A stretch of DNA of 64,000 bases from Porphyridium purpureum (taxonomy: Eukaryota; Rhodophyta; Bangiophyceae; Porphyridiales; Porphyridiaceae), in the NCBI GenBank assembly GCA_008690995.1, contig VRMN01000001.1:3472001-3536000 (forward strand), given 5' to 3'. Of this stretch, positions 165 through 63,286 are shown piece after piece. The stretch's first letter is position 1. Every line of letters begins with the position of its first letter. The notes under the pieces are model-generated. The model was given only the letters and a program-made list of their open reading frames with translations, had not been told where the DNA came from and made no database searches. A program made the position numbers and the translations under genes.

Positions 165-172
165 ACTGTACC
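165..172 (+). promoter_or_regulatory. ACTGTACC promoter motif
   Basis: Exact ACTGTACC within a cluster; AGTACAGT variants lie at 139-146 and 151-158 and a GCTGTACC at 189-196. It is upstream of the phosphoglucomutase gene. Function is inferred from recurrence across the window. Confidence 0.5.
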
Positions 173-452
173 ATAGTCTCGACGGGGAGCTGTACCGCGC
201 GTTGCGGTGGCGGGACGCGCCGCGAGGTCACCAGTGCAGCAGCGCTCGCGGCGTGCTGGCGTTCTCCAAACACGACACCCGCCGGAATTCGTGCGCTTCA
301 GCGATGCGCCGCGCGCGCGTGTGTGGCGCTCGTCCTGCCGCGTGGTTCCGTCGAGCCCCGTGCCGCTGCAGCGCGCGTTGTTTCTGTCGGTATGCGACGG
401 CAGCCGGGTTCGCGGCGCGGGGCGTGCGAAGCTGCAACACGCGCGCACTTGC

Positions 453-460
453 GGTACAGT
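453..460 (-). promoter_or_regulatory. GGTACAGT promoter motif
   Basis: Exact motif 227 bp before the phosphoglucomutase ATG, followed by GCTGTACC at 499-506. Inferred core promoter element. Confidence 0.5.
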
Positions 461-633
461 GCTGTGAACCGCGCCGAAATCTGCGGCGCGGTTTCCGGGC
501 TGTACCCCCGCGCGTGTGTGTGGTGGCGTGCGCCACAAAAATGAACGGCCAGCTGGTTTCGATGCGGAGATTTGTGGCGGGGAGAGAGAGAAGGCAAGGC
601 AGGCGGGAAGAAGAGGGTGGAGAAGAGCAGAGG

Positions 634-634
<1 letters not shown>

Positions 635-662
<28 letters not shown>
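635..662 (+). repeat. (AG)14 microsatellite in the PGM leader
   Basis: Fourteen uninterrupted AG units, 24 bp before the PGM start codon, probably within the 5' untranslated leader. In the PGM frame it would read as an Arg-Glu run, which argues that translation starts after it, at 687. Confidence 0.9.
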
Positions 663-664
<2 letters not shown>

Positions 665-686
665 GGGAAGAAGAGGGAGTGCGAAG

Positions 687-2429
687 ATGGTGGGGTATGT
701 GGTGAAGAGCGTGGCGACGGCGCCGATCGACGGCCAGAAGACAGGCACGTCGGGGCTGCGGAAAAAGACGGCCGTGTTCAGCTCGCCAAACTACCTGGCC
801 AACTGGGTGCAGTCGCTGTTCTACTCGCTGGACGGGCTGGCCGGCGCCACAATTGCGCTCGGCGGCGACGGGCGCTACTTCAGCAAGGAGGCGATCCAGA
901 TCATCGCGCGCCTGGCCGCCGGCAACGGCGTCGCCAAGCTCGTGGTCGGGCAGAAAGGCATCATGTGCACACCCGCAATGTCGTGCGTCATCCGGGAATC
1001 CAAGCTGTACGGCGGAATCATTCTCACCGCATCGCATAACCCGGGAGGCCCAGATGAGGATTTCGGAATCAAGTACAACACCGGAAACGGCGGGCCCGCT
1101 CCAGAAAGCGTGACAGACGCAATCTTCGCCCACACAAAGTCGATCTCAGAGCTCAAGTTTGCCTTTGCAGAGGACGGCTCGGAAGATCCGTTTGCCTCTG
1201 CAGATATCTCCAAGCTCGGCAGCACGACTTTCACAACGGCAGGTGGCTCCTTTGAAATCGAGGTGATTTCGCCCACCGAGCAGTACGTTGCCATGCTGAA
1301 GGGCATGTTCGACTTTACCTCCATGAAGGCACTGCTAGCCCGCGAGGACTTCAAGATGCTGTTTGATGGTATGTCCGGCGTGACGGGCCCGTACGCGCGG
1401 CGCCTCTTCGTTGAGGAGCTTGGTGCGCCAGAGTCGTCGCTCATGCGTTGTGAGCCGCTGCCAGACTTTGGCAAAGGCCATCCGGATCCAAACTTGACGT
1501 ACGCAGCAGAACTCGTCAAGCACATGGATCCCAAGCAGAACTCGGACGCGCCTGACTTTGGCGCTGCGTCCGACGGCGACGGCGACCGTAATATGATCCT
1601 GGGCAAGGGCTTCTTCGTGACGCCAAACGACTCTGTCGCGGTCATCGCGGCTGAGGCTACGTCCGCCATTCCTTATTTTCAGAAGCACGGGCTAAAAGGT
1701 GTGGCTCGCTCCATGCCGACGGCAGGCGCCATTGACAAAGTCGCGGCAAAGCTTGGCCTCGAGTGCTTCGTCACGCCAACTGGCTGGAAGTTCTTTGGCA
1801 ACCTGATGGACGCCGGCCGCGTGCAGATTTGCGGTGAGGAAAGCTTCGGAACAGGTGCAGACCATGTACGCGAAAAGGATGGCCTTTTCGCGGTGCTATC
1901 CTGGCTGCAGATTCTTGCGTACAAGAATGCAGACTCGTCCAAGCCGCTCGTGTCGGTTGAGGCCATTGTCAAGGAGTTCTGGAGCACGTATGGACGCAAC
2001 TTTTTCTCTCGATATGATTACGAGGGCGTCGAGTCGGACGCCGCGAACAAGATGATGGCACACCTGGAGAAGATCCAAGAAGACATGAACGCGAGTAAGG
2101 ACCCGAGCGGTCTAATGACCTTGGGTGGTTTCGCCACCAAGGTCAAGTTGGCGGAAAACTTTACATACAAGGATCCCGTCGACGGCAGCGTGGCCTCCAA
2201 GCAGGGTATTCTGTTTGTGTTCGAGGAAGATTCGCGCATCATCTTTCGGCTCTCCGGCACAGGCTCCGCAGGGGCTACCATCCGTATGTATATTGAAAAA
2301 TACGAGCCAGACGCAACACAGACTGACAAGGACGCTCAGGTCGCGCTCAAACCGCTCATCGACCTTGCCCTGGAAGTCAGCCAGCTCAAGGAGTTCACGG
2401 GTCGCAATGAGCCAACAGTGATCACGTAG
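687..2429 (+). CDS. PGM: phosphoglucomutase
   Basis: Interconverts glucose 1-phosphate and glucose 6-phosphate, linking glycolysis with starch and nucleotide-sugar synthesis. The protein has 580 residues, the usual length for eukaryotic PGM1. The phosphoserine loop TASHNPGG is intact, with the catalytic Ser near residue 116. The Mg-binding loop DGDGDR is near 296-301, the sugar-binding loop CGEESFGTG near 382-390, and the C-terminal phosphate-binding RLSGTGS is present. The ATG at 687 was chosen because the family's N-terminus ([17 protein letters not shown]) follows directly. The longer open frame upstream is an Arg-Glu run encoded by the AG repeat. No transit peptide is seen, so the enzyme is probably cytosolic. 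Its 3' end converges on the next gene, with 118 bp between them. Confidence 0.96.
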
Positions 2430-2547
2430 GATAGGCTGCAAATCCTAAAAATCGGACGATTTGATCGATTCGAAAGGCTATCCGACATGAAAAGTAACGC
2501 GAAAAAGAATAGTTCACATAGTTCACAGCCTCTTGAAATCTTCATCG

Positions 2548-4272: not shown

Positions 4273-4373
4273 GTAGCCTCCGCCATACCCGCATTTGGAC
4301 AGCCTGGAGAAATTTGGGAGAGAAGGTACTTGGATGTTAGTCGTTCACCTCCCATGTCAGGAATGGAAGAAAG

Positions 4374-6977: not shown

Positions 6978-6979
6978 GA

Positions 6980-6987
6980 GGTACAGT
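6980..6987 (-). promoter_or_regulatory. GGTACAGT promoter motif
   Basis: Lies 3 bp after the Ku80 stop codon and 137 bp before the ATG of the next gene. The downstream gene's promoter therefore appears to begin inside the Ku80 3' untranslated region. Confidence 0.55.
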
Positions 6988-7123
6988 CTAAAGCCACAGT
7001 GTTCAGTAAAATACGGGAAAGTATGAAAAATTAAATTAAAAAAGACCTTAAAATAATGGAGGTGTCGTTCGCCAAGTGCGTGGCGGTTGGGCCCGCTCCA
7101 AGTGGGTAGCAGCATCAGGAGAG

Positions 7124-8974
7124 ATGGAGAAAGGCTTGGCGGAGCTGCGGAGCGGCGACCGGCAAAAGCAGCTTAGTGGGTTGCTCATCTGCATAGCCGC
7201 GCTGCGGTCTGACGACTCAAAGGGATCGGTCTCGGGGGATGCTCGCGGGGAATCTGGTGCAAAGTGCCACGAGGTGTTCAACGCTGCATTTGGCACGGAC
7301 GGTGCTTTATTCCGTAGACTGCTCAAGGCAGAATCCACACGGCTGCTTGCAGCAAAATGTCTGTCAGCACTTGTCAAGCTCGACTGTACGCTTGCATGTG
7401 ATCCGCGGCACGCTGGCGTGGTGCCAGCCCTGCTTTCGGCAACCCGCGACGAACTTGATGCCTCATTCTCTGACCCTGTCAACGTGGAGCTGCAGCGAAA
7501 GCATCGCATAGCTATCCTCGAGTCAGCCATTTCATACTTGGTAAGCGTGTCTCTTCTTAATGACAATGCGCTACGCCTGGAGTCTGCAGATGTATCCAGT
7601 CATGCTCTAGCAATGAGCCGAATAGTATGCTACGGCCTGCAAGAGCAGCAGCTGCCAGAATGCGCTCGCTTGGAGGCACTGCATCTCTTGATGACTTCCC
7701 TTAAATATACTGAAGTGCTCCCTCTTGAAGCGGAAAGGAATGCAGTGATATATCAAATGCTTCGGTGCGTCGTGGAGCAGTGCATACAAGAAAAAGAACA
7801 GCACTTAGATGAGCAAGTGCTGACCTATGGCTTTGCGCTACCCATGACTCTACAAGTCATGGCCGAAAACCCGGAACGATTCGGCTGGGACCGGGGTGAA
7901 AAACGGGGAGGAAATCAGGAAAAGGGTGTAGAGAGGAATCAGATGTGCCTGTTGCGGAGGGCATTGGAGTGTGGGCTCAGGCAAAGCATGAAATTGACAC
8001 TGGCAAAAGGGAAAGCGGAGCAAGACGCAGAGGATATGAAGCTGGGTGTGTACGTTTGCGTCCATTTGGGAGTACATTTGTTCGGCCGGCGGTTCTTGTC
8101 TTGGATGGACCTGGACGGGAATTCTACGCAAAACGCGTTGCCATCTGCAGGTTCGCCGCCGTGGTTGCTTGCAGCATTGGTTGTGCAAAATGTTGCCACC
8201 GACTTTCGCGTGCATTCAAGTCTGAATGTGCGACTGCTCGCGCTCCGCGCCTTCGCTGCTGTTATGTGTGCCCTAATGACGGATGAACAAGACGATGAGG
8301 AAAATGATACAGTCCTTGGTCCTGACACAGAAAATGAGCAAGCTGTTCTCGTGTACACTGTGCAGTGTGTTGAGGTTCTTTTAGACCAAGCAGACGTGCA
8401 CATCAAAAAGCAGCGCGAAACTCCGAGCAGCATAGATCGCCTCTTGGTGTCGCTTTGCAGCACGTTATCCAAGTTCTTGTGCATGGCAGTGCCTACCCTG
8501 GAAGATCGCTGCGTACGTGTCCTCTGTTCCGCATTGAAACTGGAGGTACGCGCCGCAGAAAACGAGGATGGATTTCTCGAAGAGAGCTCGATCTTGCATG
8601 CCATCATCCATGACTTGAACGAGCTGTGTTCAGACACCGTGCGGGCGCGGATTTGCGCTGAGCACGGTCTCGAGCGCGTGCTGTACGAGCTGCTTGGCTT
8701 GTACGGAGGCAAAGTGCGGCTGGATGGGCTCGAATCGTCTCGCGTGCGGTCGTTCGCGTCCCTGGTGGACACTCTGACCAGTCTTACAGAAATCGACGGG
8801 TCTACTGTGGATCGAGCCGCAGTGAGATCATCTGTCGAGCAGCTGGTGGCTCGAATGCAGGTTTACATACAAGAAAGTACCACCGAGCGTGCGCGTACAG
8901 AAATTTCTCCTCAAGCTGATGCGCGAGCCCTACGCGAGGCGCTGTGCTTGGCCTTGACCGAGTTACAAATTTGA
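7124..8974 (+). CDS. helical-repeat protein, possibly neurochondrin family
   Basis: A 616-residue, almost wholly helical protein with armadillo/HEAT-like spacing of leucines. The opening (LAELRSGDRQKQLSGLLICIAAL) followed by a paragraph on losing or counting chromosome-size repeats resembles neurochondrin, a cytosolic scaffold whose biochemical role is poorly defined. The resemblance is by eye and moderate. An importin-like or other armadillo protein is the alternative. The frame extends further upstream but without an ATG. The ATG at 7124 follows a promoter motif at 6980 by 137 bp, which supports it. No signal peptide or membrane span is seen. The 3' end converges on the MFS transporter gene. 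Confidence 0.6.
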   Translation: MEKGLAELRSGDRQKQLSGLLICIAALRSDDSKGSVSGDARGESGAKCHEVFNAAFGTDGALFRRLLKAESTRLLAAKCLSALVKLDCTLACDPRHAGVVPALLSATRDELDASFSDPVNVELQRKHRIAILESAISYLVSVSLLNDNALRLESADVSSHALAMSRIVCYGLQEQQLPECARLEALHLLMTSLKYTEVLPLEAERNAVIYQMLRCVVEQCIQEKEQHLDEQVLTYGFALPMTLQVMAENPERFGWDRGEKRGGNQEKGVERNQMCLLRRALECGLRQSMKLTLAKGKAEQDAEDMKLGVYVCVHLGVHLFGRRFLSWMDLDGNSTQNALPSAGSPPWLLAALVVQNVATDFRVHSSLNVRLLALRAFAAVMCALMTDEQDDEENDTVLGPDTENEQAVLVYTVQCVEVLLDQADVHIKKQRETPSSIDRLLVSLCSTLSKFLCMAVPTLEDRCVRVLCSALKLEVRAAENEDGFLEESSILHAIIHDLNELCSDTVRARICAEHGLERVLYELLGLYGGKVRLDGLESSRVRSFASLVDTLTSLTEIDGSTVDRAAVRSSVEQLVARMQVYIQESTTERARTEISPQADARALREALCLALTELQI

Positions 8975-13864: not shown

Positions 13865-13886
13865 ACTGTACATCGGTGGGTACAGT
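13865..13886. promoter_or_regulatory. paired ACTGTACA and GGTACAGT motifs
   Basis: ACTGTACA at 13865-13872 and GGTACAGT at 13879-13886 form an inverted pair 82-103 bp before the kinase ATG. Confidence 0.55.
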
Positions 13887-13967: not shown

Positions 13968-15385
13968 ATGGGGATGTTTGACTGCTGCCTCGGCACCAGC
14001 GCGACCGCGCCGGCGTCTTCTGGCGCAGCCGCCGCAGCGGCGTCGTCCGCAATGCCTGCCGGAGTGGCACTCCCGGGATGCGAGCTGCTTCGGCTGTTGG
14101 GCGAAGGCTCCTTTGGCACGGTGATTCTCGTGCGCGAACGCCAGACAGGTAACCTTTACGCCGTCAAGATCATGTCCAAGGCACAGCTCGCATCTGAAGA
14201 CCAGCTCGCTAACATTGCATTGGAGCGACAGGTGCTCAGAGAAGCCGGCCCGCACCCGTTTATTGTCGAGTGCGCCGCGGGATTCCAGACCGAGAATGCA
14301 GTGGTGCTCGTACTCGAGTACCTGCCCGGCGGTGACTTCTATGACCTACTCCGCTCAAAAGGATTATTGTCTGAGGAGCAGGCTCAGTTCTATCTTGCCG
14401 AGGTCGTGGTGGGTATTGGCGAGCTTCATGCTCACAAGGTATGTGCTCGTGCGCTTGTATTTTACAGGATCTGCTGGGACTTTTCTGTGTACTTGGATTT
14501 CTCACCTGATGTATGAGATCGTTTAACTGACCTCTTCTGTCATTGTCCGATTGATTCACGCGTCAATGTCTTATTTACACTTCGATATCACGTTTGTTTG
14601 TCTCTGCATGTCATGGTCTGCAACAACTCGAAATGATGCATCGTATCCCACAGTTTGTACTGCGCGACCTCAAGCTGGAAAACATCTTGCTGGACGCTGA
14701 CGGGCACGTGCGCTTGACAGACTTTGGACTCGCAGGCAAAGTGAATACAGTGGGCGACACGAGCATCACGGATCTCAGTGGCACGGCCATCTACCAAGCG
14801 CCTGAGATTCTGTCCGGGAAGGGCCATGGTACTCCAGTTGACTGGTGGGCGCTGGGTATCCTTGCATTTATCATGATGACTGGAAAGCCGCCATTCGGTG
14901 GTAGTGATCGCGCAGAGCTGTACGCGGCGATCGAAAAAGCCGAAATCGATCTAGAAAGTAACCCGAAGGCGCAGGGTTGGGATCCTATCACAAAGGACTT
15001 TATTCAAGGTTTGCTTACGAAAAATCCTGCCAAGCGACTGGGGTCGGGCGGAGTGCAGGATGTCATATCACATCCCTTTTTTCGAGGCATTGATTGGGAG
15101 GCTCTACTGCGCATGGAGCTCGAGCCGCCCATTAAATTGGGCATCGAAAAGGCGGGTCTCGGCGAGAAGGATGCTATGGCGGCACAGCAAGCCAAAGAAC
15201 AATTGCGGAAGAAGCTTGACCAAGCCGCAAAGGATCGTAAGGGTGTCTATGGCGTCCTAGCTGAATTCCAAGAGATCCGTGCAGGCGGGCGCGCATCAAT
15301 AGGGCTGGACTTTGACAACAAGCGTTCAGACCAAGACGATGGCGCCGCTCTCAAGAAGGCTGGTTTTTCTCTGCTTAAGAAGTAA
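13968..15385 (+). CDS. AGC-family Ser/Thr protein kinase with acylation-type N-terminus
   Basis: Two exons: 13968..14438 and 14654..15385, giving 400 residues. The intron is phase 0, starts GTATGT and ends CCCACAG. Joining restores the catalytic loop, LHAHK then FVLRDLKLEN. The glycine loop (GEGSFGTV), the VAIK-type lysine (YAVKIM), DFG, the GTAIYQAPE segment and the AGC-type ending HPFFRGIDW are all present, so it should be active. The protein opens MGMFDCCLG: Gly2 with Cys at position 6 fits N-myristoylation, and the two Cys fit palmitoylation, so membrane attachment is likely. There is no PH domain. The C-terminal tail is Lys-rich and coiled-coil-like and lacks a visible FxxF hydrophobic motif. 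The closest subgroup by eye is Akt/S6K/PKC. Confidence 0.87.
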
Positions 15386-15402
15386 ATCCGGCCGAGCTTG
15401 CC

Positions 15403-19609: not shown

Positions 19610-19630
19610 CTGTACTGTACTCACTGTACT
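19610..19630. promoter_or_regulatory. triple CTGTAC promoter motif
   Basis: Three CTGTAC cores in 21 bp, two of them ACTGTACT, 83-103 bp upstream of the helicase ATG. Confidence 0.5.
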
Positions 19631-21835: not shown

Positions 21836-21843
21836 GGTACAGT
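21836..21843 (-). promoter_or_regulatory. GGTACAGT promoter motif
   Basis: Exact motif 101 bp upstream of the XDH ATG, paired with CTGTAC at 21826-21831 in the opposite orientation. Confidence 0.55.
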
Positions 21844-26245: not shown

Positions 26246-27446
26246 AAAGGTATCGTACTTTCCGGGGTCTGTTCGGGTGCGTGCCCTCTTGCAAGCCGTG
26301 CCTGTGCCATGGAAGGAAAAGGACATGGAGCCCGAGTTCAACCAGAATCCAAATGCAAGCATTGCATCCATGCTCACGCCGCCGCCGCGCCAAGGACACC
26401 GTGCGACAAGCGCATGCCCTAGATGTTGATACTACGAGATCAAGCCCACTATCTTCGGGTCAAAACATTTCAATGCAGCTAGTCTCAGAGGGATCGCGAA
26501 CACCATGTCCAAGCGATGCAAGTCTGCTGGCTGGCGCGCTATCACGACCTAGTCACTCGACCCGTGGTCTGAAGAAAGAGAGGCCGCGAGGAGCGCATCT
26601 CTGCAGAAACGGTTAGAAGCAAGCCTGGCTCTGAAAATGAGGAGACATGGTGTAAGCTGGCTTGGCGTCGTTTCGAGCGAAGAATTTGTGAGTCCGGGTC
26701 GAGCGATGCGGACATCTTCCCGCAGAGCGACGCACACAGGAAGCCCGATGTCGGGCTGTGCGCGCTGCTCTTATCATGTACCGACATTCGTTACCAGTCA
26801 AGTTTGACTTGGGCAAACACGTGTTAAGGATTTCGGATCCGACATGGTCCATGTCGTCTAACGGGTTCCGGCGTTTCGGGTCTTTTTGAAAGACCCGTGA
26901 AGAAGATACGATACAAACGCAATGACAGAGCCTGACCTTTCTAGTACAAGTCACAAGAACGCAAGTGTCGCCTTCATAATTACTCACATAACAGGAAAAC
27001 TTTCCGTAGGGCGCGACCTTTAGTCCATGCATAAAGCAGGCGGCGGCCGTGTCCGTTTCGAGACCCCGGCCCTCTCAAGACCGGTGCTGTCTGTGCCGAC
27101 GCGAAGGTTCATAGTAAGGGCCCTACACGTAGCATCTCCGACCCCTCACGCTTCTTGGTGGCCTCCATGCGGTTGTCCTCTTTGTGCTGCCTGTGTTTTG
27201 TTCTTCGTGTGCCGTCATCCGGTGTGTGCGCTTGTCATCACCAGGCACATGGGATTTGAAGTGTACTAAATACTGTACCGCACGGGATCCCAGATTCTCG
27301 GTTGTTGCCCCGCGTCCGAGGAGATTCGCAAGTCACAACGCTGTCAAGGGAAAAGATACTTGCTCTTCCTTTGCGTACTACGCATACGCTTGTGCACCTG
27401 CCTGCGCCATTGAACAAGACAACACGTGATCGCGTGAAGCTTTGTC
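26246..27446. other. intergenic stretch of 1.2 kb
   Basis: It contains the XDH 3' region and the promoter of the next gene (motif at 27272). A minus-strand frame at 26613-27032 starts with ATG and encodes 139 residues, but its codon use is not biased and no domain is recognised, so it is not called. Confidence 0.45.
27272..27279 (+). promoter_or_regulatory. ACTGTACC promoter motif
   Basis: Exact motif 167 bp upstream of the ATG at 27447. Confidence 0.55.
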
Positions 27447-32836: not shown

Positions 32837-33379
32837 GATGACTCAACCTATCTGCACGTCGCGTCCGTCTCTTGATCTGTCATGTTGCACCGCCAAGCGC
32901 CACTACGGATAGCGTCATAACACGAGCGGCGCCATGCTTATATACCCGCTGCGAGCGCGGTGCGTCTGCTACCGATCGGCAGGGACAGCGGGCGCAGAAA
33001 GTCGAATTAATGGCTGTGCGCGACGCTTTGCAGGTTCGCGGCGTTCCGGCTCCGATGCGGAAGAGCCGGTGCTCGATGCAACCGAGCTCTCTCCACGCGT
33101 TTCTCCTGCTTGATCGTGCGAAAACGCGCCAGTTTTGCTAGCACAGTTTTCTCGCCAGCAGCGCCAAGCTGTACCTCGTCCGGCGGATTCACTGTACCGC
33201 ACTCCGCACGCGCCTGCTCCGGCTCCACACCGCGTGCGAGCGCGCGCACTCGAGAAAACATGGGGAGCGCGGAGCAGGAGGCATTTGCGCGTATAAAGCG
33301 TGCGCGTGAGCAGGAAGATATTGTTGGCATCGTGCCGGTTGGATTGAATGGTTGAGAGCACGCGCTGGTACAGGGGACG
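32837..33379. other. divergent promoter region
   Basis: 543 bp between the Akt-like and SRPBCC genes, read away from each other. It contains GCTGTACC at 33168-33175 and ACTGTACC at 33191-33198. No gene is seen. Confidence 0.55.
33191..33198 (+). promoter_or_regulatory. ACTGTACC promoter motif
   Basis: Exact motif 181 bp upstream of the SRPBCC gene ATG and 355 bp from the Akt-like kinase start on the other strand. Confidence 0.55.
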
Positions 33380-35400: not shown

Positions 35401-35408
35401 ACTGTACC
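35401..35408 (+). promoter_or_regulatory. ACTGTACC promoter motif
   Basis: Exact motif 158 bp from the RING-BRCT ATG on one side and 135 bp from the small candidate ORF at 35544 on the other. Confidence 0.5.
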
Positions 35409-41625: not shown

Positions 41626-41633
41626 GGTACAGT
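41626..41633 (-). promoter_or_regulatory. GGTACAGT motif in a divergent promoter
   Basis: Lies 58 bp from the methyltransferase ATG and 135 bp from the ATG of the opposite metalloprotease-like gene; only 201 bp separate the two starts. Confidence 0.58.
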
Positions 41634-44260: not shown

Positions 44261-44658
44261 GATATTCGAAAACAAAAATCGGGCGCCAGGCGCGTGAGTG
44301 TCGTGTGGCACAGGAAGCGAGGCCCAACCCGTTTCGATGTCGTCCGACGGCCACACGATGAACCAACCCCTTTCGCTGGACCGAAAAGTTCATGAACGCC
44401 AGGCTGAGACAACGCTGGGTTCTGTGCAGCGTGCACTGTACCTTTTGTAGATCTTTTGTGCTGCCCGGTGCCAAGTTCTAATCTGATCCGCTGGGGTGCG
44501 AGCAGCAGCTTCATCTCACGGCACGACACACGAACCGAAACGCGTCGCGTTTTCGCCAACTGCTCCTGCTCCTCGAGCAAGGTCGTCGCTTGTTCGAATC
44601 CATCAGAAGCAGAGTCCAGCGAACGCTTTCCTTGCTGCAGAACACGCAGAGCTGCGCG
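44261..44658. other. divergent promoter region
   Basis: 398 bp between head-to-head starts. The motif at 44435 lies near the middle and probably serves both genes. No gene is seen. Confidence 0.55.
44435..44442 (+). promoter_or_regulatory. ACTGTACC motif in a divergent promoter
   Basis: 175 bp from the MPDU1-like ATG and 216 bp from the hydrolase ATG. Confidence 0.57.
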
Positions 44659-45606: not shown

Positions 45607-48153
45607 TCAGATTTTCGATGTGACCACCCGCTTTAGCTTGTCCATGAGCGCTGCATCAAAAGACCTCAGTGTCCCTGCAATCGTTCTCAGCATCTTCGCC
45701 ATAACGAGATTTGTAACGTCGTCGCGCGCAACATCCCGTTCATCGATATACCGGAGAATTTCAACGAGCAGAGCGTGCTTCTTGCTGTGCATGCACTCAA
45801 ACAAAATCATGTTCCACGACGATGTTGGCACGTATAAAGGATGACTTTGGCTTCCCTCATGCAATGAATGCAACATCCTCCATGCGCTGTCGTGGTGCCC
45901 CCCGCGGCACAGGGCCTTAAGTACGTAACTGCGTTCCATCATCTCGATGTCTTCACCCTGCTCATTGAGCTCTGTCCGAAGCCGCTGAAATATGCACACA
46001 ACGTCCCGCGAGCGACCCAGGCGCGAGTACGCGTCTGCAGCGACCAAAAGAATATTTTTGGAAAGGCAAGGTAAAGAGTTTGAAGCGTCTTCAAAAATCT
46101 GGATGGCTCGATTCAGATGATCTTCAGTGTCCGATTTCACATGCACACGCATGAGAGCCACGTACGAGTTGACATGAATCCGTTGATCAGTCTTTGCACA
46201 CACTGACTCAAGCGCCGCAAAGAATTTTTCCGCTCGGTACGTGTTGCGCGGTTTCATACACAAGCTGATCAAGAAAGTGTACGAGACAGCGTCACAACGG
46301 ACTTGAAAGTCCTTGCTGAATTCGCGAATCAGTTTCAAGGCATCTTCAAGGTTCCCATCGCTTTTGACGATGCACTTCAGCATTGCATTCATTGTTCCAC
46401 TTGTCAGGCTGACTTTGCAATAAGTCATCGAATCAATCGCTTGGAGGGCGGCCACTAAGTCGCCGTCTTCTGCCACTAGATCAAGATACGTGTTGAAAGT
46501 GACCGTGTCGGCAGTCCCAGAACGTACGAGCTTTTCAAGAACATTCTCGGCTTTCAACCGCATATCCAACGATCTGTCATTGCCTTCTGGGCATTTCTTC
46601 AATTCACCGCGCAGCTCACTGCGATACGTTTTTAACAGGGCATTATATGCTGGAAGCTTTTCTAAGGCACGAGTATCACAAAACTCACTTTCGAGCCAGC
46701 GCACGATTTGCTCGGCCAATGAAGAATCCTGCCGCTCGCTGCACGCATCCATAAGGATAACAAATGAAATGGGATCCAATCTGACTCCAAACTCTGCCGT
46801 CAGGCGTCTGACACAAGCTAATATATCCGTCATTGAGTACGAGGTCTCCTGGCACAAAACCGCGATACCCGCATTCACCGACGAAGAACCAAACGCATGC
46901 TCATGGCGTGCAAAGTCGACGAAGCGAACCAAATTGTCGGGTGACGTGGCCTCCCCGCAGCGCACTTCTATTGCCGCATACTCTCTCAAACTCCACTCGT
47001 CCAAATGTATCCAAAAGTCACGACCGTTTTCTGACTTGTTCAGAAGTGCCCTGGCTAACTTCAACCAATCATTGCGTGGGAATTCCTTGCTCTGGGCATT
47101 ACTCGCCCGAAGCCACAAATTTGCTAGCTCAGGAAGTAGGTCTGGAGTTGACAAAGCCCAATGCTTCGTGAATCTATGTACACGTTCAAGTACCTCCTCA
47201 TCGACGAGACAAAAGGCATTGCTCCGTATGTGAGCCCGCAATGTGGCAAAACTGTCCTGTTCCAGTGGCAGCAAAGGATCCAGGAGAAAACACGCAATAT
47301 CTGAGCGTCCAATGTGTACAAGAGTGCCGATCGCAGTCGCAAACGTGCCAAACGAAACCTCCTGCATGTCGTTGCAAGATTCCTGATACTCACAAAGTAA
47401 TTCAAGGAGCTTCGTGGCGTCCTCCTTCCGCACAAGGGATTTCATGAGCGTCCCGTAAGTGACACCATTTGGGACAATTCCGCGCTCACTCATTTGTCTG
47501 ACCAATGAGTCCACAGATCTTTTGTCTCGAGCCAATACCGCAAGGTGAATGAGCGAATTGAAAGTAACCACATCACGACTAACCCTTCCGCAAAACTGCG
47601 AATCAAACCAGTCCATGATGGTTTGCGCCTCCGCCAAAGAACGTGCACACTTGAGTGTCGTATTCAACGTGACAGGGGACGGCCCTATCCTCAGCGCATC
47701 CAGCTCGTGCAAAGTCTGCTTGATATGCTCGAATGCGTGTGACCCCTTACCTCTACATCGCACGACAGCATCAATATATGCATTCAATGTGAATACATTA
47801 GGCACGAATCGCGTGCTCAAGCCCGCATGTTGATCTCCATTGTCCGTTTCCGTGACGGTTCGAAACAGGCGCGTGGCTTCATCCAGCTGCCTTTGTCGTC
47901 CGAACCTTGAAATACGCCGGTTTACGTCGCGAATGTTGCGAAACTCTTGGAGCTGCAGATCAGTATCCGCAGAAGCAGACACCGAAACTGCGCAAGGACG
48001 AGAGCGCTGGGCCGGACGCAAGCAAGCGGTACGAATGCCACGTGCGCGGCGGGCAATGCGCGCGCCAGGTTCGCGCAAGCCGGCGCGCGTCCGGGACCGG
48101 GACCCTAACACAGCTCCACCGGAAAACGCGAGCCCAAACGCTGCCGGCTCCAT
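45607..48153 (-). CDS. pentatricopeptide repeat (PPR) protein, organelle-targeted
   Basis: An 848-residue protein with an Arg/Ala/Ser-rich presequence of about 60 residues, acidic residues absent. Helical repeats of about 35 residues start near 110, each with the VTFNSLI / MSERGIVPNGVTYGTLMKSL pattern of P-class PPR proteins, and fill the rest of the protein with some degenerate ones. Such proteins bind one RNA in a plastid or mitochondrion and control its processing, stability or translation. No editing (E/DYW) or Smr domain is seen at the C-terminus. Plastid versus mitochondrion cannot be settled by eye. Confidence 0.88.
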   Translation of the reverse strand: MEPAAFGLAFSGGAVLGSRSRTRAGLREPGARIARRARGIRTACLRPAQRSRPCAVSVSASADTDLQLQEFRNIRDVNRRISRFGRQRQLDEATRLFRTVTETDNGDQHAGLSTRFVPNVFTLNAYIDAVVRCRGKGSHAFEHIKQTLHELDALRIGPSPVTLNTTLKCARSLAEAQTIMDWFDSQFCGRVSRDVVTFNSLIHLAVLARDKRSVDSLVRQMSERGIVPNGVTYGTLMKSLVRKEDATKLLELLCEYQESCNDMQEVSFGTFATAIGTLVHIGRSDIACFLLDPLLPLEQDSFATLRAHIRSNAFCLVDEEVLERVHRFTKHWALSTPDLLPELANLWLRASNAQSKEFPRNDWLKLARALLNKSENGRDFWIHLDEWSLREYAAIEVRCGEATSPDNLVRFVDFARHEHAFGSSSVNAGIAVLCQETSYSMTDILACVRRLTAEFGVRLDPISFVILMDACSERQDSSLAEQIVRWLESEFCDTRALEKLPAYNALLKTYRSELRGELKKCPEGNDRSLDMRLKAENVLEKLVRSGTADTVTFNTYLDLVAEDGDLVAALQAIDSMTYCKVSLTSGTMNAMLKCIVKSDGNLEDALKLIREFSKDFQVRCDAVSYTFLISLCMKPRNTYRAEKFFAALESVCAKTDQRIHVNSYVALMRVHVKSDTEDHLNRAIQIFEDASNSLPCLSKNILLVAADAYSRLGRSRDVVCIFQRLRTELNEQGEDIEMMERSYVLKALCRGGHHDSAWRMLHSLHEGSQSHPLYVPTSSWNMILFECMHSKKHALLVEILRYIDERDVARDDVTNLVMAKMLRTIAGTLRSFDAALMDKLKRVVTSKI

Positions 48154-48297: not shown

Positions 48298-48305
48298 ACT
48301 GTACC
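48298..48305 (+). promoter_or_regulatory. ACTGTACC motif in a divergent promoter
   Basis: Nearly centred between the PPR start (145 bp) and cyclin start (149 bp). A CGTACAGT variant lies at 48330-48337. Confidence 0.6.
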
Positions 48306-48446
48306 GCTGCGTTCCCGCTGTTCAGCGGTCGTACAGTGCGGCTTGCGCGCGCGGATTGGCCGTGGCAGTGGGGCGGCCAAGGGCGCGCACGACACAAACG
48401 TGTACGGCGGCGGCGCTCGAGTCTGTGCTCCCGGAGGACACCGGTG

Positions 48447-53293: not shown

Positions 53294-55009
53294 CTACTTC
53301 ATCAGCGGAGATAAGAGCTGAGCAACTTGATTCAACGTAACAAGATGCACCTCATTACTCGACAAGGATCTTTTCTGGATCGCACGCTCTAGCAGCCAAA
53401 GCTGTTCAAATTCGTCCCGCATTAAAGGCATCACTCGCACAGCGCTGCCTCGCCCATATCCATGAAACGCTGCCACGGGCTGGTCCCCAGACACCGTCTT
53501 GCCTTGTAGAGCGTGTCGCTCATGCTTCCACGGCATTCGATACGTGCCCGGTATGGAGATGCTTTCAGCAGATGTCACGTACTTGTGAATACACATGTAC
53601 AGCCGCTGCGATCCGCAGCGCTTGCAGAATGAGTTTGTTTCCATTTCGCACCCCAGAATGTAGTCCTGCAATTTTTCGACCAAGGCACGAGAAAGGACAA
53701 CAGTACCACCTTGGGGAATGCCCGGACAATGTTCACAGAAGAGACGATCGCATCGAGTCTCCGCTGAAGATTCGAAGGAGTCTTCACCAGGAAGGCTGCA
53801 CCAGCGGCCCCCGCCTTTCACATTGATGTCCCGAATCCAGCGGGCAAAGCTGCTGTAATCTCCGTTATCAACACGAACAGCTTCAAGGTAGCCGCCCCAT
53901 TTCGGTGAGACATCCGGATCTGGTAATGCAGAACGTGCAAGTAGTGAGAGCGCTCGAGGAAAGACATATGTATCATCATCTACCAGCGCAAGGTATTTTA
54001 GGTTCGGATTCTTCCGCATCGCTCCGTTCCACGCAGCGCGGACTCGAACAAGATGCGACCATGCGCCCATAGATTCAAGATAGCGCTCGGACATTGCGTA
54101 AGCAGGTTGCACCACTTCAAAGCGGACGAAATCACAGCGTGTCGTCTCCATATCTGTAAATACTACAATATTATCGGGTTGCAGCCCCCGTCCCCACGAT
54201 CTACTGACTGCGTCGACGCGCTCGGCAAAGTTCTTGTTTCCTGCGAGAACCGCAAAAAAAGTGCTATCTTCGGGGAAGCCCTGCTTCGAAATAACTTGCG
54301 AATCTGCTAAATTGGTGCCAAATGCACGAATTCTGCCGTGCTGAGCAGACCAGATGATTGGGAAGGAAGGCGATAAAGCAATGAGTCCCGCTTGTCTCTG
54401 CAGAACCCTGGCCTCACTTTCCGAGCCCAGTTCTAACTCCAGCAGTAAATTTGAGCCCGACAGCGAGATACTCTTGCGAGACAGCCACGCCCGAGATAGT
54501 TCAGACAATGCCTGCACGATCGAAAAATTGCCTATCAGGCAGGAAGAGGCGCTCTCACGGACGACAATGTGCAGTACGGCCTCACATGCTCCATTTCTCG
54601 CTTCCCCGCATAAAGCTTCCATGGCATTCAGGAGTCCGACTCGAAAAGTGTCACAAGAAGCTACCCACGGAGGAAGCACTCTGGGTGTCGGGGAGGTCAC
54701 GGAAGTGGTCGCGCCACCGCTATCGTCAAGGACGCCAGACGTGACGAGTGCGAGTAAGCCATCCCTGCCAGCAAGTCGCCGACTGTCGATCGAATCATGT
54801 GACTGCGCGAAGTTCAAGTCATGTTCTAGAATCAAGCTACCGAGCACTGACGGCAGCGTCCGTGTTCGCCGTTGGTGGCCGACCTGACCACGATGAAGCA
54901 GTACGAAGGCGCGCAACAGCAGCACAGACAGAGCAACCACCAGAGTGGCCACTAAAGCCGGCAATCGAGGCGACCGGCGAACTTTCTCACTCCCGCGCGG
55001 CGCATGCAT
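53294..55009 (-). CDS. type II membrane glycosyltransferase, fringe/GT31-like
   Basis: A 571-residue Golgi-type glycosyltransferase. A short basic tail is followed by one signal-anchor span (PALVATLVVALSVLLLRAFV, about 16-36). The catalytic half, from about 265, has FFAVLAGNKNFAERVDAVSRSW, then IVVFTD, LKYLALVDDDTYVFPRAL with the metal-binding DDD, and a GGTVVLSRALVEKL region as in fringe-like transferases. Several Cys pairs near the end (CDRLFCEHC, CKRCG) probably form disulfides in the lumen. It should transfer a UDP-sugar onto glycans, perhaps the exported polysaccharide. Sugar and acceptor are unknown. The ATG at 55009 lies 64 bp from an ACTGTACT motif. Confidence 0.83.
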   Translation of the reverse strand: MHAPRGSEKVRRSPRLPALVATLVVALSVLLLRAFVLLHRGQVGHQRRTRTLPSVLGSLILEHDLNFAQSHDSIDSRRLAGRDGLLALVTSGVLDDSGGATTSVTSPTPRVLPPWVASCDTFRVGLLNAMEALCGEARNGACEAVLHIVVRESASSCLIGNFSIVQALSELSRAWLSRKSISLSGSNLLLELELGSESEARVLQRQAGLIALSPSFPIIWSAQHGRIRAFGTNLADSQVISKQGFPEDSTFFAVLAGNKNFAERVDAVSRSWGRGLQPDNIVVFTDMETTRCDFVRFEVVQPAYAMSERYLESMGAWSHLVRVRAAWNGAMRKNPNLKYLALVDDDTYVFPRALSLLARSALPDPDVSPKWGGYLEAVRVDNGDYSSFARWIRDINVKGGGRWCSLPGEDSFESSAETRCDRLFCEHCPGIPQGGTVVLSRALVEKLQDYILGCEMETNSFCKRCGSQRLYMCIHKYVTSAESISIPGTYRMPWKHERHALQGKTVSGDQPVAAFHGYGRGSAVRVMPLMRDEFEQLWLLERAIQKRSLSSNEVHLVTLNQVAQLLSPLMK

Positions 55010-55312
55010 TGTGGACGCTGGCCACGGTCTCGCGGACCCCAACACTTTACCTTGCGCGCTTCGCAGCGATGAACTGTACTAATCCACAGAACCGCGCGCC
55101 AGTCACGCTGGGATCGTGCGCGTAGCACTGGACTACGGCACCTGCTCGGAGCGCGCGCGCGCGTGCTTACGGGCGGAACCCAACCAGCAGACCGAGGCTG
55201 CGTGTGCCGCGCTGTCGCTCGGCAGCTGGCTGGCTCACTCTCCTCGAAAGCCAGCCGATCACTTCTCAACTTGCTGCTCTCCCACGGCGCGTCGACGTCG
55301 CGTGGGATCTGC
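55010..55312. other. divergent promoter region
   Basis: 303 bp between head-to-head starts, with ACTGTACT at 55073-55080. It also contains a short alternating CG tract near 55151-55163. No gene is seen. Confidence 0.5.
55073..55080 (+). promoter_or_regulatory. ACTGTACT promoter motif variant
   Basis: 64 bp from the glycosyltransferase start and about 230 bp from the SNF2 start. Confidence 0.45.
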
Positions 55313-58420: not shown

Positions 58421-58785
58421 TTTTGTACTGCGGTCTCGTGACGCGTGAGAGAAAGAAAGTTCGCCGAGACAAGGCAGGTGCTTATTAAATGATTGTACTG
58501 CTGAACACCGACCTTAACCTCGAGCGAGAAGCACTCGCGGTAGACAGAGCCCGTGGGTCCGCCTGGAGCATTTCATTTATTCGGGACACGCGCTTGGAAC
58601 TTCAACTTCAGTCTTTCGCACAACACTGTACCTCTTGGGCGTCAAGGCGGCACACGAAGGAGCGGTCTGCATCGCGGATTGCCACAATTGCCCGCGTCCT
58701 GCTCTTCAAGTGTGCACATACGCGCGCAGAGCGGAAAGGGAAGTCGCGTCGCGGGTTCAAAGATTCGAACAGAAGTCTTGAAACC
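58421..58785 (+). other. intergenic region and HDAC promoter
   Basis: 365 bp between two genes in the same direction. The ACTGTACC motif at 58625 lies 154 bp before the HDAC start. The open frame running through it is not conserved. Confidence 0.55.
58625..58632 (+). promoter_or_regulatory. ACTGTACC promoter motif
   Basis: Exact motif upstream of the class I HDAC gene. Its position inside the longer open frame is why the start was placed at 58786. Confidence 0.6.
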
Positions 58786-60075
58786 ATGCAGCGACGCGTG
58801 AGCTACTTCATGGACAATGAAGTCGGAGGCTACTACTACTCGCAGGGTCACCCGATGAAGCCGCACCGCATCGCCATGACGCACAACTTGGTGCTTGCGT
58901 ATGGCTTGTACAGACAGATGGAGGTTTATCGGCCACGATCTGCCGCCCCAGAGGAGATCACTGACTTTCACTCGTCCGATTACGTCAACTTCTTACGCCG
59001 CGTGAATCCAGACAACGCCGCCGAATTCGAAAAGGAACTCACGCGATTCAACGTGGGTCGCGTAGGCGGTGACTGTCCTTTGTTCGACGGTCTGTACGAC
59101 TTTTGTCAAAAGTATACGGGAGCCTCGATCGACGGGGCCCGCAAACTCATCGCTGGTGAGTCGGATATTGCGATCAACTGGAGCGGTGGCTTGCACCACG
59201 CAAAGAAGGCAGAAGCCAGCGGATTCTGTTACGTGAATGACATCGTGTTGGCGATTCTCGAGCTCCTTAGGTATTTTCCGCGAGTCTTATACATCGACAT
59301 TGACGTACATCACGGCGATGGAGTAGAGGAAGCATTCTATGCTACAGACCGTGTCATGACACTGTCGTTTCACAAGTTTGGGGACAACTTTTTCCCAGGT
59401 ACCGGTGACATTTGGGACAAAGGTGCGGGTAGCGGCGAGTATTACGCCGTCAATTTCCCTCTCAAGGATGGGATAGACGACGAAAGTTACGACCAAACCT
59501 TTGTTCCAGTAGTGAGCAAAGTTATAGAGGTTTTCCAACCCTCTGCCATTGTGCTGCAGTGTGGGGCAGACTCGCTGGCACAAGATCGATTAGGCTGCTT
59601 TAATCTGACAACTCGCGGCCATGCAAACTGTGTTCGGTTTGTCCGGTCCCTTAACATACCACTCTTAGTTGTGGGAGGAGGCGGGTACAATATCCGAAGC
59701 GTCGCACGATGCTGGGTAAACGAGACAGGAGTATGCTTGGGAACAGAGCTGGAGAATCGGATTCCGTACAACGACTACTGGGAATACTTTGCGCCGGAGT
59801 ACAACCTTCACGTAGAGAAAACAAGCATGGAAAACGCAAACTCCCGGGAATACTTGGAGGCGCTCAAAGTTAAGATTTTCGAGAATCTTCGGTGCTTGAA
59901 CGCTGCGCCTTCCGTCCAAATGCAGGAAATGCCGCCTTCCCTGTACGAAGATAAGGGCGGTGATGATCTATTAGACCCAGATACTCGTCCCACTGCCCAG
60001 GACGGAGATCAGAGGCAGTCACCAGATGAGTTTTACGACTCAGACCGAGACCAAGGGTTCGAAAATTTGAGATAG
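58786..60075 (+). CDS. HDAC1: class I histone deacetylase (RPD3/HDAC1 type)
   Basis: Zinc-dependent lysine deacetylase of nuclear corepressor complexes. The 429-residue protein is close to human HDAC1 over its catalytic length. It starts [28 protein letters not shown]. The paired His are in [19 protein letters not shown] (near 138), the zinc ligands in [14 protein letters not shown] (near 170) and [13 protein letters not shown] (near 266). The catalytic Tyr is in [14 protein letters not shown]. The core ends in [15 protein letters not shown], as in RPD3. A short acidic tail follows. All catalytic residues are intact. Confidence 0.96.
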
Positions 60076-60496
60076 ATCGAAGAGTTGTTTGCCCTTGCAC
60101 ACATGACATCCGTGTCTTCACATAATCCGAACGTCCTGAATGACATGAGCAAGTTGATGTTGGGACTGTAAATGACACGTCAAATCGTAGATTCCGATGA
60201 GCATGCAAAGTGTCATCCCGTGACGGTCTTTCTTACAAAAAATGAAAACGGCATGCACAAAGAAATAAAGGCTAGTGACATGGGATTTGGATCCAGACTG
60301 TAAAATTGAGTGGCCTCTTCTGGGAAATGCTCAGGATAGACAATGTAACCCAGAATGCCATCGCTCCAACGCAGGTCTCGATGTGGTCTCGGCACCCAAA
60401 ATATATTTCACGTGGACGCGTCTTTCGAGAACCGACACCTTTATGCACGCAAACAGGAGCTTGACGAAGACGCCTGCAAAGAAAGATGTCGCTTGA
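60076..60496. other. convergent 3' regions
   Basis: 421 bp between convergent stop codons. AT-richer than coding sequence; probably 3' untranslated regions. No gene is seen. Confidence 0.55.
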
Positions 60497-61486
60497 TTAC
60501 AAAGATCCTTGCACCGCAAGAACCAGTCTCCTGGCGCCCATCGACACGCGCGCACGCACGAGATATAGGATTGCCGCTGCAAGCGTGCTCTGAACAATTT
60601 TGGTCGACATGCCCCGATAAAATCCCTGTATTCCTTCTTTTCTTGATATCGTCATCAGAGCATCAGCCATTCCAGCATAATGTTGCAGATTATGTGCGCC
60701 CTTCCCTGAGACTTGCAACAGGCTTTTCACCACTAAAAGCGGGTATGTCAGTACGGTAGCTCCCAGCTTGGCTAGAGCGCCTATGATGAGCAGAGATCCC
60801 GCCGAAAGTACCTGACCACCGCCCTTGCGTCGGAGCCTTGCGCGAAGCACACGCGTCAGGAACTCTAGGATCGCAAATTGGAAAACAGGATTGCTGACCA
60901 TCAAAAGGGCGGGCAAAAGCCCTTTCAACACAGACTTCATTTGCTCTTCACGATACATCAAGCTGGCTGTCTCAAGAAAACCTCCACTCGAAGTCTGCAT
61001 GCGCGTGACGATAACCCACAGGGGATTTGTAATGAGGACGTTCATGCAGCCAGCCAGTGACGACACGAAGATTGAGCCTGCAACAGACAGAGACTTTGAA
61101 TGTCCGGCGCCGCTGCCGGTCAAGACCGCGCGAAAAAGGGAGTAGAAGTAGTAGTAGACTCCTTGGCTGCATACGGTTCCAAGCAGCGCCGGTCTTAAGC
61201 CAGCGTACAGAGAGCGGAACCAGACGAGCTCATCGTTTAGCCATTCAGAAACGTCCTGCTTGCGGGTCGCGAGCCCGGCGTCTTTTCTGCTGGTATCGTC
61301 GACCGTGCCGAGTTGCTGAGTCAACGAAGGTGAAGCGTTCGACGGAGATGACTTCACGCGAGTCTGCACCCGAGCAATGACCGTCATCAGGGGAAAGGTG
61401 GACGCGAGCGCCACGCTGCCGCCGAGCATGCCGGACAGGGCTTCGACAAGCGCCTCGCCAGACGCAGTACTGTGTGTCCCTGCCAT
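60497..61486 (-). CDS. mitochondrial-carrier-family protein, peroxisomal PMP34-like
   Basis: A 329-residue SLC25-type carrier with three repeats. Carrier signatures are present: STFPLMTVIARVQ, TNPLWVIVTRMQ and TYPLLVVKSLLQ, with the second and third followed by the usual amphipathic stretch. The pattern PLWVIVTRMQ with a YYYFYSLFRAVL helix resembles PMP34/PXN, the peroxisomal carriers of adenine nucleotides, CoA or NAD. The loop after the first repeat is long. It is tentative as to organelle, since ordinary inner-membrane carriers look similar. The ATG at 61486 matches the expected start; the frame upstream has no ATG. Confidence 0.84.
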   Translation of the reverse strand: MAGTHSTASGEALVEALSGMLGGSVALASTFPLMTVIARVQTRVKSSPSNASPSLTQQLGTVDDTSRKDAGLATRKQDVSEWLNDELVWFRSLYAGLRPALLGTVCSQGVYYYFYSLFRAVLTGSGAGHSKSLSVAGSIFVSSLAGCMNVLITNPLWVIVTRMQTSSGGFLETASLMYREEQMKSVLKGLLPALLMVSNPVFQFAILEFLTRVLRARLRRKGGGQVLSAGSLLIIGALAKLGATVLTYPLLVVKSLLQVSGKGAHNLQHYAGMADALMTISRKEGIQGFYRGMSTKIVQSTLAAAILYLVRARVSMGARRLVLAVQGSL

Positions 61487-61672
61487 GCTGGGACAAGGAT
61501 GAAAGATGACAGGATGTTCTGTTCCCCTTGCCGCCGTCCTGAATAAGTGGTTGCCTGCCACCACGCCGCCACTCTTCTCATTACTGATAGCGTGCGAACG
61601 CGCCGAACGTGGCTTTCGCGCGATCACACTGAGCCGCCATGCGTGTACAGTTGTGCGTCCGAGAAGGTCTGA

Positions 61673-61680
61673 GGTACAGT
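61673..61680 (-). promoter_or_regulatory. GGTACAGT promoter motif
   Basis: 187 bp upstream of the carrier start on the minus strand, with a TGTACAGT variant at 61644-61651. It lies just beyond the stop codon of the sulfotransferase gene. Confidence 0.55.
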
Positions 61681-61690
61681 GCCGACAGCG

Positions 61691-63172
61691 TCAAGCTGGA
61701 CCGGATGCGCGGTGGCGTGCCGTCTCGACGCAGTGCGGGTACCTTTGCAGCAACGCTGCGAAGATGTCCTCTGCCACGTTGTACAGGTGAACATCCAGGC
61801 GTTCGGCATCCAGCACGCGTGAAATAGTGCTTTCTGAGAGGCTCATGGCAATGTCCTCGCTGCGCGTGCGCTGGTTCAAGTGTGTTTTCAGAACTTTCTG
61901 CAGATCCATCTCATGCATCACCCGTTCACGAGTTGATTTGAGCCGTGATAACACGTCAAATGGTTCAAACTGACTGTGCTTGCTGGCGTGCAGACTGTCC
62001 ACAAAATCTTCATACACGGATTCTTTGTTCAGCATTTCCACAAGCACACACATAGATTCTGCGAACCTCTCCTGAAGTCCGACGAAGAAGAAATTGTTTC
62101 GCAGGTGCAACTCGGCGAGCTCTAATGCTGTCGACGCAATCACAGCATCCGTTTCAATCATGTAGTCGCGCAAGTCAGTTAGAAGGTCTGAGGATAACAA
62201 GTGGGCCGAGATCTTCGACGAAATCCGCTGCCACATCCCGCGCGATCCGGGCCTCCAAAAAGAAGTTCCGAGTCCGGCCAACCGTTTGGTCATGTAATTC
62301 AGATTTCGCGAGGTAAGATAGTGCACCAAAGGTTCCTCGTTTCGCGTTTCCCGATACTGGGACACGGAATAGTTCGATGCTTCAAAATGGCCGTAGTGAG
62401 ATATCTTCCGACGCAGCGGATGTCTCATGAAGGTAAAATACGTTCCTATGCGTCCCGGAATAATGTAATGAGCTCCGTAGTACTGATGGCCTACAATCAT
62501 GTCCAACGCTAGACGTTCTTCGGTGCTCATATCCAGGACCAATTCATGCAAATTGCAGTCGTAGTCAAACTCTGGATGCTTAAGTCGATGGTTCATTAGA
62601 ACTCGGTAAGCAAAGCTCTCGTTCTTTCGCGCACGATGACAAGTGTGATGCAAATTCAGGCCATTCTTTTTCGCAAAGGCGAATAAGTGTGTCTTCAGAT
62701 TATTGCCTGCGGTTTTATGCAAATGCAGAAAGATGAGAAGCAGTTTCGGAGGCTCACGGCTGCTGAAAAGATCCACGTACAAGTCGCTCTCGATGAATCT
62801 CGGGTAGAGAAGAGACGTAGGAATCCACGTAGCATTTGCAGCGGTGTCGCTTTCACCTTGACTGCCACCAGGCCCGTGCGCAACGGGATCGGCCTTGTTC
62901 CAGTTTCTTTGCCATACCGCTGAAGTTTCGTGATGTGGCTCAATGCTCTTGCCTCGCAGATCGAGAGCACGCTTGGAAATCGCTACCGCCCAAATCGCAC
63001 TTATCATCACGTAGACAAGGGCGAACTGCGGGGCAAGCGACGCAACTGAGCTGCGTTGCCGCGCCTTGGGGCTTAGCTTGGCGCTGCAGCTCGAGCCATA
63101 GTCAATCGAAAGAATTCCGCGATGATCTGCCGCCTGCAATCTCCGAGGGCGCGCCTGGCGCACTGCGGGCAT
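61691..63172 (-). CDS. type II membrane sulfotransferase
   Basis: A 493-residue Golgi-type enzyme that should move sulfate from PAPS to a glycan or other exported acceptor. A signal-anchor span at about 50-70 (FALVYVMISAIWAVAIS) follows a basic cytosolic tail. The 5'-phosphosulfate-binding motif is IFLHLHKTAGNNL and the 3'-phosphate-binding motif is FMRHPLRRKISHY, as in the HS2ST/galactose-sulfotransferase group. The ATG at 63172 was taken. Red algae export heavily sulfated polysaccharides, so a cell-wall role is plausible but inferred. The acceptor is unknown. Confidence 0.86.
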   Translation of the reverse strand: MPAVRQARPRRLQAADHRGILSIDYGSSCSAKLSPKARQRSSVASLAPQFALVYVMISAIWAVAISKRALDLRGKSIEPHHETSAVWQRNWNKADPVAHGPGGSQGESDTAANATWIPTSLLYPRFIESDLYVDLFSSREPPKLLLIFLHLHKTAGNNLKTHLFAFAKKNGLNLHHTCHRARKNESFAYRVLMNHRLKHPEFDYDCNLHELVLDMSTEERLALDMIVGHQYYGAHYIIPGRIGTYFTFMRHPLRRKISHYGHFEASNYSVSQYRETRNEEPLVHYLTSRNLNYMTKRLAGLGTSFWRPGSRGMWQRISSKISAHLLSSDLLTDLRDYMIETDAVIASTALELAELHLRNNFFFVGLQERFAESMCVLVEMLNKESVYEDFVDSLHASKHSQFEPFDVLSRLKSTRERVMHEMDLQKVLKTHLNQRTRSEDIAMSLSESTISRVLDAERLDVHLYNVAEDIFAALLQRYPHCVETARHRASGPA

Positions 63173-63278
63173 AATGCTTTCAATCACAGACGTGGCCTGT
63201 TCGAGAATCAGGAAAGCGATGTCATGAGTCACATCAACTTGTTTCCATGGCAGCGTTCGTAATTTAATTTCTGCGGTG

Positions 63279-63286
63279 ACTGTACC
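63279..63286 (+). promoter_or_regulatory. ACTGTACC promoter motif
   Basis: 107 bp upstream of the sulfotransferase start and between it and the citrate synthase 3' end. Confidence 0.57.

Follow-up and report, generated by a model that had tools for sequence, protein, structure and literature searches.

A 64-kb stretch of the genome of the red alga Porphyridium purpureum (C43:3472001-3536000, here called the window) contains 14 copies of the 8-base word ACTGTACC/GGTACAGT, 8 on the plus and 6 on the minus strand. The word was found to be one form of a promoter-associated element with the core ACTGWAC (W: A or T), which is probably a binding site for a sequence-specific factor that acts broadly, and not a core promoter element. 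As a single word, ACTGTAC is carried by 56 of 106 promoter-bearing intergenic regions (mean 10.1, maximum 18 in 30 order-3 simulations) and by 0 of 52 convergent ones, and the spacing of neighbouring copies alone suggests a footprint.

A first-pass annotation of the window had listed the 14 copies in both orientations. Each was recovered at its position, which confirms the observation on the 8-mer (Table 1). The excess is real, but the chance level of about two copies given in that annotation is too high, as 100 dinucleotide shuffles yielded 0.73 +/- 0.84 copies (maximum 3) and a trinucleotide model of the window predicts 1.28; ACTGTACC is the top-ranked 8-mer of the window by likelihood score. 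That all copies lie outside coding sequence holds for 14 of 14 after correction of the start of a histone deacetylase (HDAC) gene. The longest open reading frame (ORF) of this gene, 58489-60075, contains the site at 58625. Solved structures of class I HDACs with the best scores align to it from residue 100-102 and HDAC8 entries from residue 125, so that the gene probably starts at the ATG at 58786, the N-terminal extension 58489-58786 is probably spurious and the site would be noncoding. Thirteen of the 14 sites are located 58-226 bp upstream of an ATG and the site at 165 at 260 bp, in agreement with the range of 60-230 bp annotated for nearly all copies; because an alpha/beta-hydrolase gene lies at 44659-45519, the site at 44435 has an owner at 216 bp. 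The claim that the 8-mer marks most promoters was overstated, since it marks a subset of them: among 30 window genes scored over 400 bp upstream (neighbouring genes set no boundary and the hydrolase was left out), 15 carry ACTGTACC, 18 ACTGTAC and 19 ACTGWAC. The Ku and Yju2 genes lack ACTGTACC, as had been noted, and MPC2 was not recognised in the Pfam scans of the window ORFs.

In the whole genome (22.16 Mb, 46 contigs) the mirror image of each word served as control. The counts of word and mirror image are 2375 versus 945 for ACTGTACC, so that the genome-wide count that had been proposed as a check is above chance, 6320 versus 3088 for ACTGTAC and 1718 versus 668 for ACTGTACT. With 14 copies, the window is denser in ACTGTACC than the genome average of ~7 per 64 kb. 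Gene context was analysed in a sample of 344 kb, consisting of the window, the 200 kb to its left and 80 kb of C1. A 3-periodic Markov gene caller, trained on long ORFs, re-trained and used with a threshold from reversed sequence, called 163 ORFs, i.e., 251 kb of coding sequence. Absent from the ORF set are the hydrolase (44659-45519) and a PLAC8 ORF (35971-36330), and the over-long HDAC ORF is still part of it; 1 of the 93 ACTGTAC sites counted as promoter sites (36229) falls inside the PLAC8 ORF and 1 of the 23 counted as coding (58625) is actually upstream.

In this sample, ACTGTAC was found at 39 sites in tandem intergenic regions (n=56, 28 kb), at 54 sites in divergent regions (n=50, 43 kb) and at 0 sites in convergent regions (n=52, 18 kb), and the coding sequence contains 23 copies versus ~20 expected. 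The comparison of coding with upstream sequence, also suggested in the first-pass annotation, came out in favour of promoters, and presence in promoters, absence from convergent regions and a near-chance level in coding sequence constitute the distribution of a cis-regulatory element. The mirror-image word is present 12 times in promoter, 5 times in convergent and 38 times in coding sequence. The promoter excess of ACTGTAC (93 copies versus 10.8 expected from 4-mers and 26.6 from 5-mers) ranks second among the 7-mers tested (p 4e-42), the first being a CA repeat. Two or more copies are carried by 29 of the 106 promoter intergenic regions, and 85 of the 163 ORFs have a site upstream. In the 280 kb outside the window, the 86 promoter regions contain 71 copies and the 42 convergent regions 0; the left flank contributes 51 copies in 58 promoter regions and 0 in 29 convergent regions, the C1 region 20 in 28 and 0 in 13.

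The core tolerates few changes. Among the 21 single-base variants of ACTGTAC, ACTGAAC is the sole clearly enriched one (28 versus 6.0 expected, 4.6-fold), and AGTGTAC (26 versus 11.6) and GCTGTAC (28 versus 17.9, 1.6-fold) are weakly enriched. For the near variants named earlier this means that ACTGTACT stands, with 29 noncoding copies versus 2.9 expected in the 344 kb, but that GCTGTAC is just slightly enriched and that the strongest variant, ACTGAAC, had been missed. As ACTGAAC breaks the palindrome GTAC and is nevertheless retained, GTAC is not the recognition core that it had been taken for but an incidental part of ACTGWAC, and the spacing of the sites points to an asymmetric footprint. 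The core has a weak 3' tail: at the 93 promoter sites it is followed by a preference for any base but G, then for a pyrimidine and then for C (0.29, 0.23 and 0.14 bits), and it is preceded by a mild preference for C or A. The best consensus is (M)ACTGWACHYC (M: A or C; H: not G; Y: pyrimidine), in which the eighth base C of the original word is one of three allowed. As a probe the word would take the form ACTGTACCTC, with ACTATACCTC and ACAGTACCTC as competitors.

The sites cluster, and their spacing is constrained. In the sampled promoters, 25 adjacent ACTGTAC pairs are found at <=37 bp versus a mean of 4.3 and a maximum of 12 in 500 random placements. Genome-wide, pairs with gaps of 0-30 bp comprise 890 direct (strands summed), 303 convergent and 245 divergent pairs, and the mirror-pattern control 10, 1 and 4, respectively; direct pairs exceed the half expected under free orientation (binomial p 8e-20). 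Direct (head-to-tail) gaps of 0-1 bp occur in 3 of the 890 pairs versus 57 expected if gaps were uniform, and convergent (tail-to-tail) gaps of 0-4 bp in 4 of 303 versus 49 expected, all four with a gap of 4 bp, whereas divergent (head-to-head) gaps of 0-2 bp are found in 24 of 245 versus 24 expected. Gapless head-to-head contact is also rare, as these 24 close pairs are distributed with 1 at gap 0, 6 at gap 1 and 17 at gap 2. These tests are based on counts from the whole genome and on the assumption of uniform gaps, and overlapping or duplicated pairs are counted as they stand. Individual gaps were analysed on C1 (99 of 100 rows for direct pairs; 27 of 50 convergent and 35 of 50 divergent pairs). 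In direct pairs a gap of 2 bp is the most frequent there, with 17 of 99 rows. The 2-bp linkers of direct pairs vary in sequence. Exclusion in direct and convergent pairs without exclusion in divergent pairs fits an asymmetric footprint that extends over the core and ~2-3 bp beyond its 3' end but hardly beyond its 5' end. The avoidance of G after the core could partly explain the convergent gaps 0-2, but neither gap 3 nor the direct gaps 0-1, and the weak 3' flank information falls on the side on which the spacing shows extra room. The case also suggests that spacings avoided between paired sites in a genome can indicate a binding footprint ahead of any experiment.

Convergent ACTGTAC pairs also recur ~6.2-6.4 kb apart inside near-identical direct repeats that resemble long terminal repeats (LTRs), located at C2:1250601-1251800 and 1257036-1258235 (L030/L031) and at C1:1067954-1069153 and 1074143-1075342 (L032/L033), with 280 bp at 100% identity and at least 858 bp at 99.3% identity. 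Promoters of LTR-type retrotransposons may have adopted the host element.

The element has no preferred strand and a broad preference in distance. Upstream of genes, ACTGTAC is found in the two orientations 69 versus 76 times and, in tandem intergenic regions, where ownership is unambiguous, 19 versus 20 times. Its density peaks between ~75 and 250 bp before the ATG. A distance of 60-230 bp to the nearer ATG was found for 48 of 98 noncoding sites, compared with 27% of random positions in promoters, and the medians of this distance are 185 bp for the sites and 319 bp for random positions. The G-over-C and A-over-T skews near the ATG fade ~100-150 bp upstream, G-over-C just gradually; from these strand skews and the position of the actin start described below, we infer that the majority of sites are close to transcription starts or a short way upstream of them. 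Presence of the motif showed no association with TATA boxes in the 142 genes that have 100 bp or more of upstream sequence (9 of 18 genes with a TATA box and 54 of 124 without, Fisher p 0.62).

ACTGWAC(H)(Y)(C) would accordingly be read as the recognition site of one abundant, putative, sequence-specific transcription factor or of a few related ones. In proximal promoters, the putative factor would bind double-stranded DNA with its site in either orientation. Two or more molecules would often bind next to each other, and each would cover ~9-10 bp with contacts 2-3 bp past the 3' end of the core. Acting at about half of the promoters, upstream of the start site, it would most likely be a broad activator or a chromatin-opening general regulatory factor with a role like that of Reb1, Abf1 or Rap1. 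In budding yeast, the sites of these three factors are short, of high information, free in orientation and located in the proximal promoters of many genes. ACTGTAC is likewise short, promoter-proximal, free in orientation (69 versus 76) and present at a large share of genes, which is what characterises general regulatory factor sites. It differs from the yeast sites in sequence, in its frequent homotypic clusters and in its 2-bp minimum head-to-tail gap. A more far-reaching version of this reading, which we regard as possible yet rather doubtful, is a lineage-specific promoter-marking system of red algae, in which a DNA-binding protein outside the known general-factor families would mark about half of all promoters with packed head-to-tail arrays, alongside or instead of TATA marking, and LTR retrotransposons would have adopted the mark.

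Several observations weigh against the main reading. The word is absent from 50 of the 106 promoter intergenic regions, its copies in coding sequence are near chance without depletion, and the mixed functions of the genes that carry sites were judged within the window only. The expectation for promoters depends on the model (10.8 or 26.6), the higher 5-mer value arising because 5-mers absorb part of ACTGTAC itself. The distance hump is broad, with 3.1-3.3 sites per kb and few sites in the bins beyond 350 bp, which are high partly because sites between divergent genes are counted for both. The actin gene adds a further such point. A primer in the 5' untranslated region (5' UTR) of P. purpureum actin was published (PMC10866757). 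Its one exact match in the genome lies 109 bp ahead of an ATG whose ORF is recognisable by eye as actin, and its partner primer matches with 19 of 20 bases and ends at this ATG. The locus (L029:1465-1610) contains TATATAAA ~30 bp before the 5'-UTR primer, and TATA box and primer together place the actin start ~110 bp upstream of the ATG. No ACTGWAC was found in the 3-kb actin locus, which includes 1.6 kb upstream of the ATG. The actin promoter works and is used in vectors. Like the word, the TATA box of actin is a proximal promoter element, and it lies upstream of a ~110-bp 5' UTR; the actin promoter, however, has TATATAAA and lacks ACTGWAC.

The promoters without the word, including that of actin, would also fit a factor that controls one large regulon, e.g., of light, nutrient or cell-cycle genes, instead of a general promoter factor. 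The carriers in the window are mixed, however, comprising genes for phosphoglucomutase, a kinase, a xanthine-dehydrogenase-like protein, a PPR protein, HDAC, an SNF2 helicase and a mitochondrial carrier, and a single regulon is considered unlikely. Clearly less probable is the suggestion of the first-pass annotation that the word is a core promoter element, i.e., an initiator-like sequence that positions transcription starts. The association with promoters, the two orientations and the restriction to a subset of genes were borne out, and the peak is near the zone in which the strand skews suggest starts (~100-150 bp upstream of the ATG). However, the orientation is balanced, the distance to the ATG is spread broadly and not fixed, 29 of 106 promoter regions hold at least two copies and TATA boxes are unrelated. 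Orientation, distance spread and TATA independence together argue against a core element, and it was rejected.

A GTAC-type response element, bound by an SBP-box protein like the green-algal copper response element (CuRE), would be very surprising. SBP-box/CuRE elements (Chlamydomonas CRR1, Arabidopsis SPL7) have GTAC as core and can be present in several copies per promoter, and the Porphyridium word also contains GTAC and can be repeated within a promoter, but its core ACTGWAC tolerates the loss of GTAC (ACTGAAC, 28 versus 6.0), which speaks against this candidate. A published table lists 0 SBP proteins for P. purpureum and 23 for Chlamydomonas, together with an expanded C2H2 set (60) and 9 TALE proteins in P. 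purpureum (PMC4827209). Our domain search of the genome returned 0 SBP matches, as it did in the control genomes. The likeness to the EIN3/EIL (TEIL) consensus AYGWAYCT (PMC5220190) is a resemblance only: TGWACCT matches seven of its eight positions, W included, but the 5' A of AYG is C in the Porphyridium word (ACTG), and the full consensus is not found in it. An EIN3 domain search likewise gave 0 matches in the genome and in the control genomes, so that neither domain search by itself demonstrates absence. An RNA element in 5' UTRs that acts in translation, stability or processing is as improbable as an SBP-type element; some sites are <100 bp from the ATG and may be transcribed, but the strand relative to the gene is unbiased (19 versus 20), on which it was rejected, and 0 copies are present in the 52 convergent regions, where only 3' ends of genes meet. 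An origin of the word as a by-product of repeats or mobile elements dispersed around promoters is the most remote of these explanations and was rejected on the flanks, for although LTR-like repeats carry paired sites, the flanks of the 93 promoter sites share nothing beyond ~3 bp and the 2-bp linkers of direct pairs vary.

As a transcription-factor site the element is ordinary in kind; as an item it appears undescribed, and it is unusually dominant. ACTGTACC was not found as a whole word in one open-access library of papers, searched on one strand and with most subscription journals outside. In this library, the 7-base words of both strands occur in 5 papers, all under titles unrelated to algae, and no such element was found in reports on P. 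purpureum or on red-algal promoters, in line with the earlier remark that no red-algal element of this form is described. Our impression, for which no survey was made, is that little seems to be known of nuclear promoter architecture in red algae. In a transformable alga, the word can serve directly as a probe to identify the factor, and compact synthetic promoters could be designed around it as a trial rule.

Table 1. Copies of the element in the window and the genes next to them (coordinates of the window).
Feature	Position	Strand	Context
Two ACTGTAC sites (140, 152)	140..158	-	One promoter cluster with 165
ACTGTACC between divergent genes	165..172	+	260 bp upstream of gene beyond the left edge of the window; phosphoglucomutase 514 bp away
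ACTGTACC	453..460	-	226 bp upstream of phosphoglucomutase gene 687-2429 (+)
ACTGTACC	6980..6987	-	136 bp upstream of gene 7124-8974 (+); stop of Ku-domain ORF 2 bp before
ACTGTACC	13879..13886	-	81 bp upstream of protein kinase gene (13968); extra ACTGTAC at 13865 (+)
ACTGTAC direct pair, 2-bp gap	19614..19629	+	Upstream of DEAD/DEAH helicase gene 15403-19527 (-)
ACTGTACC	21836..21843	-	100 bp upstream of xanthine-dehydrogenase-like gene (21944)
ACTGTACC	27272..27279	+	167 bp upstream of ORF 27447-28040 (+)
ACTGTACC	33191..33198	+	181 bp upstream of Polyketide_cyc2 gene 33380; 354 bp upstream of kinase 31322-32836 (-)
ACTGTACC	35401..35408	+	158 bp upstream of BRCT-domain gene 33899-35242 (-)
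ACTGTACC, divergent promoter	41626..41633	-	58 bp from methyltransferase 40776-41567 (-), 135 bp from 41769-43244 (+)
ACTGTACC	44435..44442	+	216 bp upstream of alpha/beta-hydrolase ORF 44659-45519 (+)
ACTGTACC, divergent promoter	48298..48305	+	Between PPR gene 45607-48153 (-) and cyclin/TFIIB-like gene 48447 (+); extra ACTGTAC at 48331 (-)
ACTGTAC, divergent genes	55073..55079	+	Between 53294-55009 (-) and SNF2 gene 55313 (+)
ACTGTACC	58625..58632	+	153 bp upstream of likely HDAC start 58786
ACTGTACC	61673..61680	-	186 bp upstream of mitochondrial carrier gene 60497-61486 (-); extra ACTGTAC at 61645 (-)
ACTGTACC	63279..63286	+	106 bp upstream of gene 61691-63172 (-)

Further observations concern the genes of the window and a second word. 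The protein kinase domain downstream of the site at 13879 is split across the ORFs 13968-14516 and 14633-15385, which suggests an intron within 13968-15385; introns are rare in P. purpureum. The BRCT-domain ORF 33899-35242 contains a tandem repeat at 34579-34708 with a period of ~12 bp and 9 copies of GGTCCACCGA in antisense. For the RabGAP encoded in the window, a protein search returned 12 relatives, Galdieria and Cyanidiococcus among them. In the 344-kb sample, the telobox-like word AACCCTA is also promoter-biased, with 20 promoter, 0 convergent and 3 coding copies, and it is commonest 100-250 bp upstream of the ATG.

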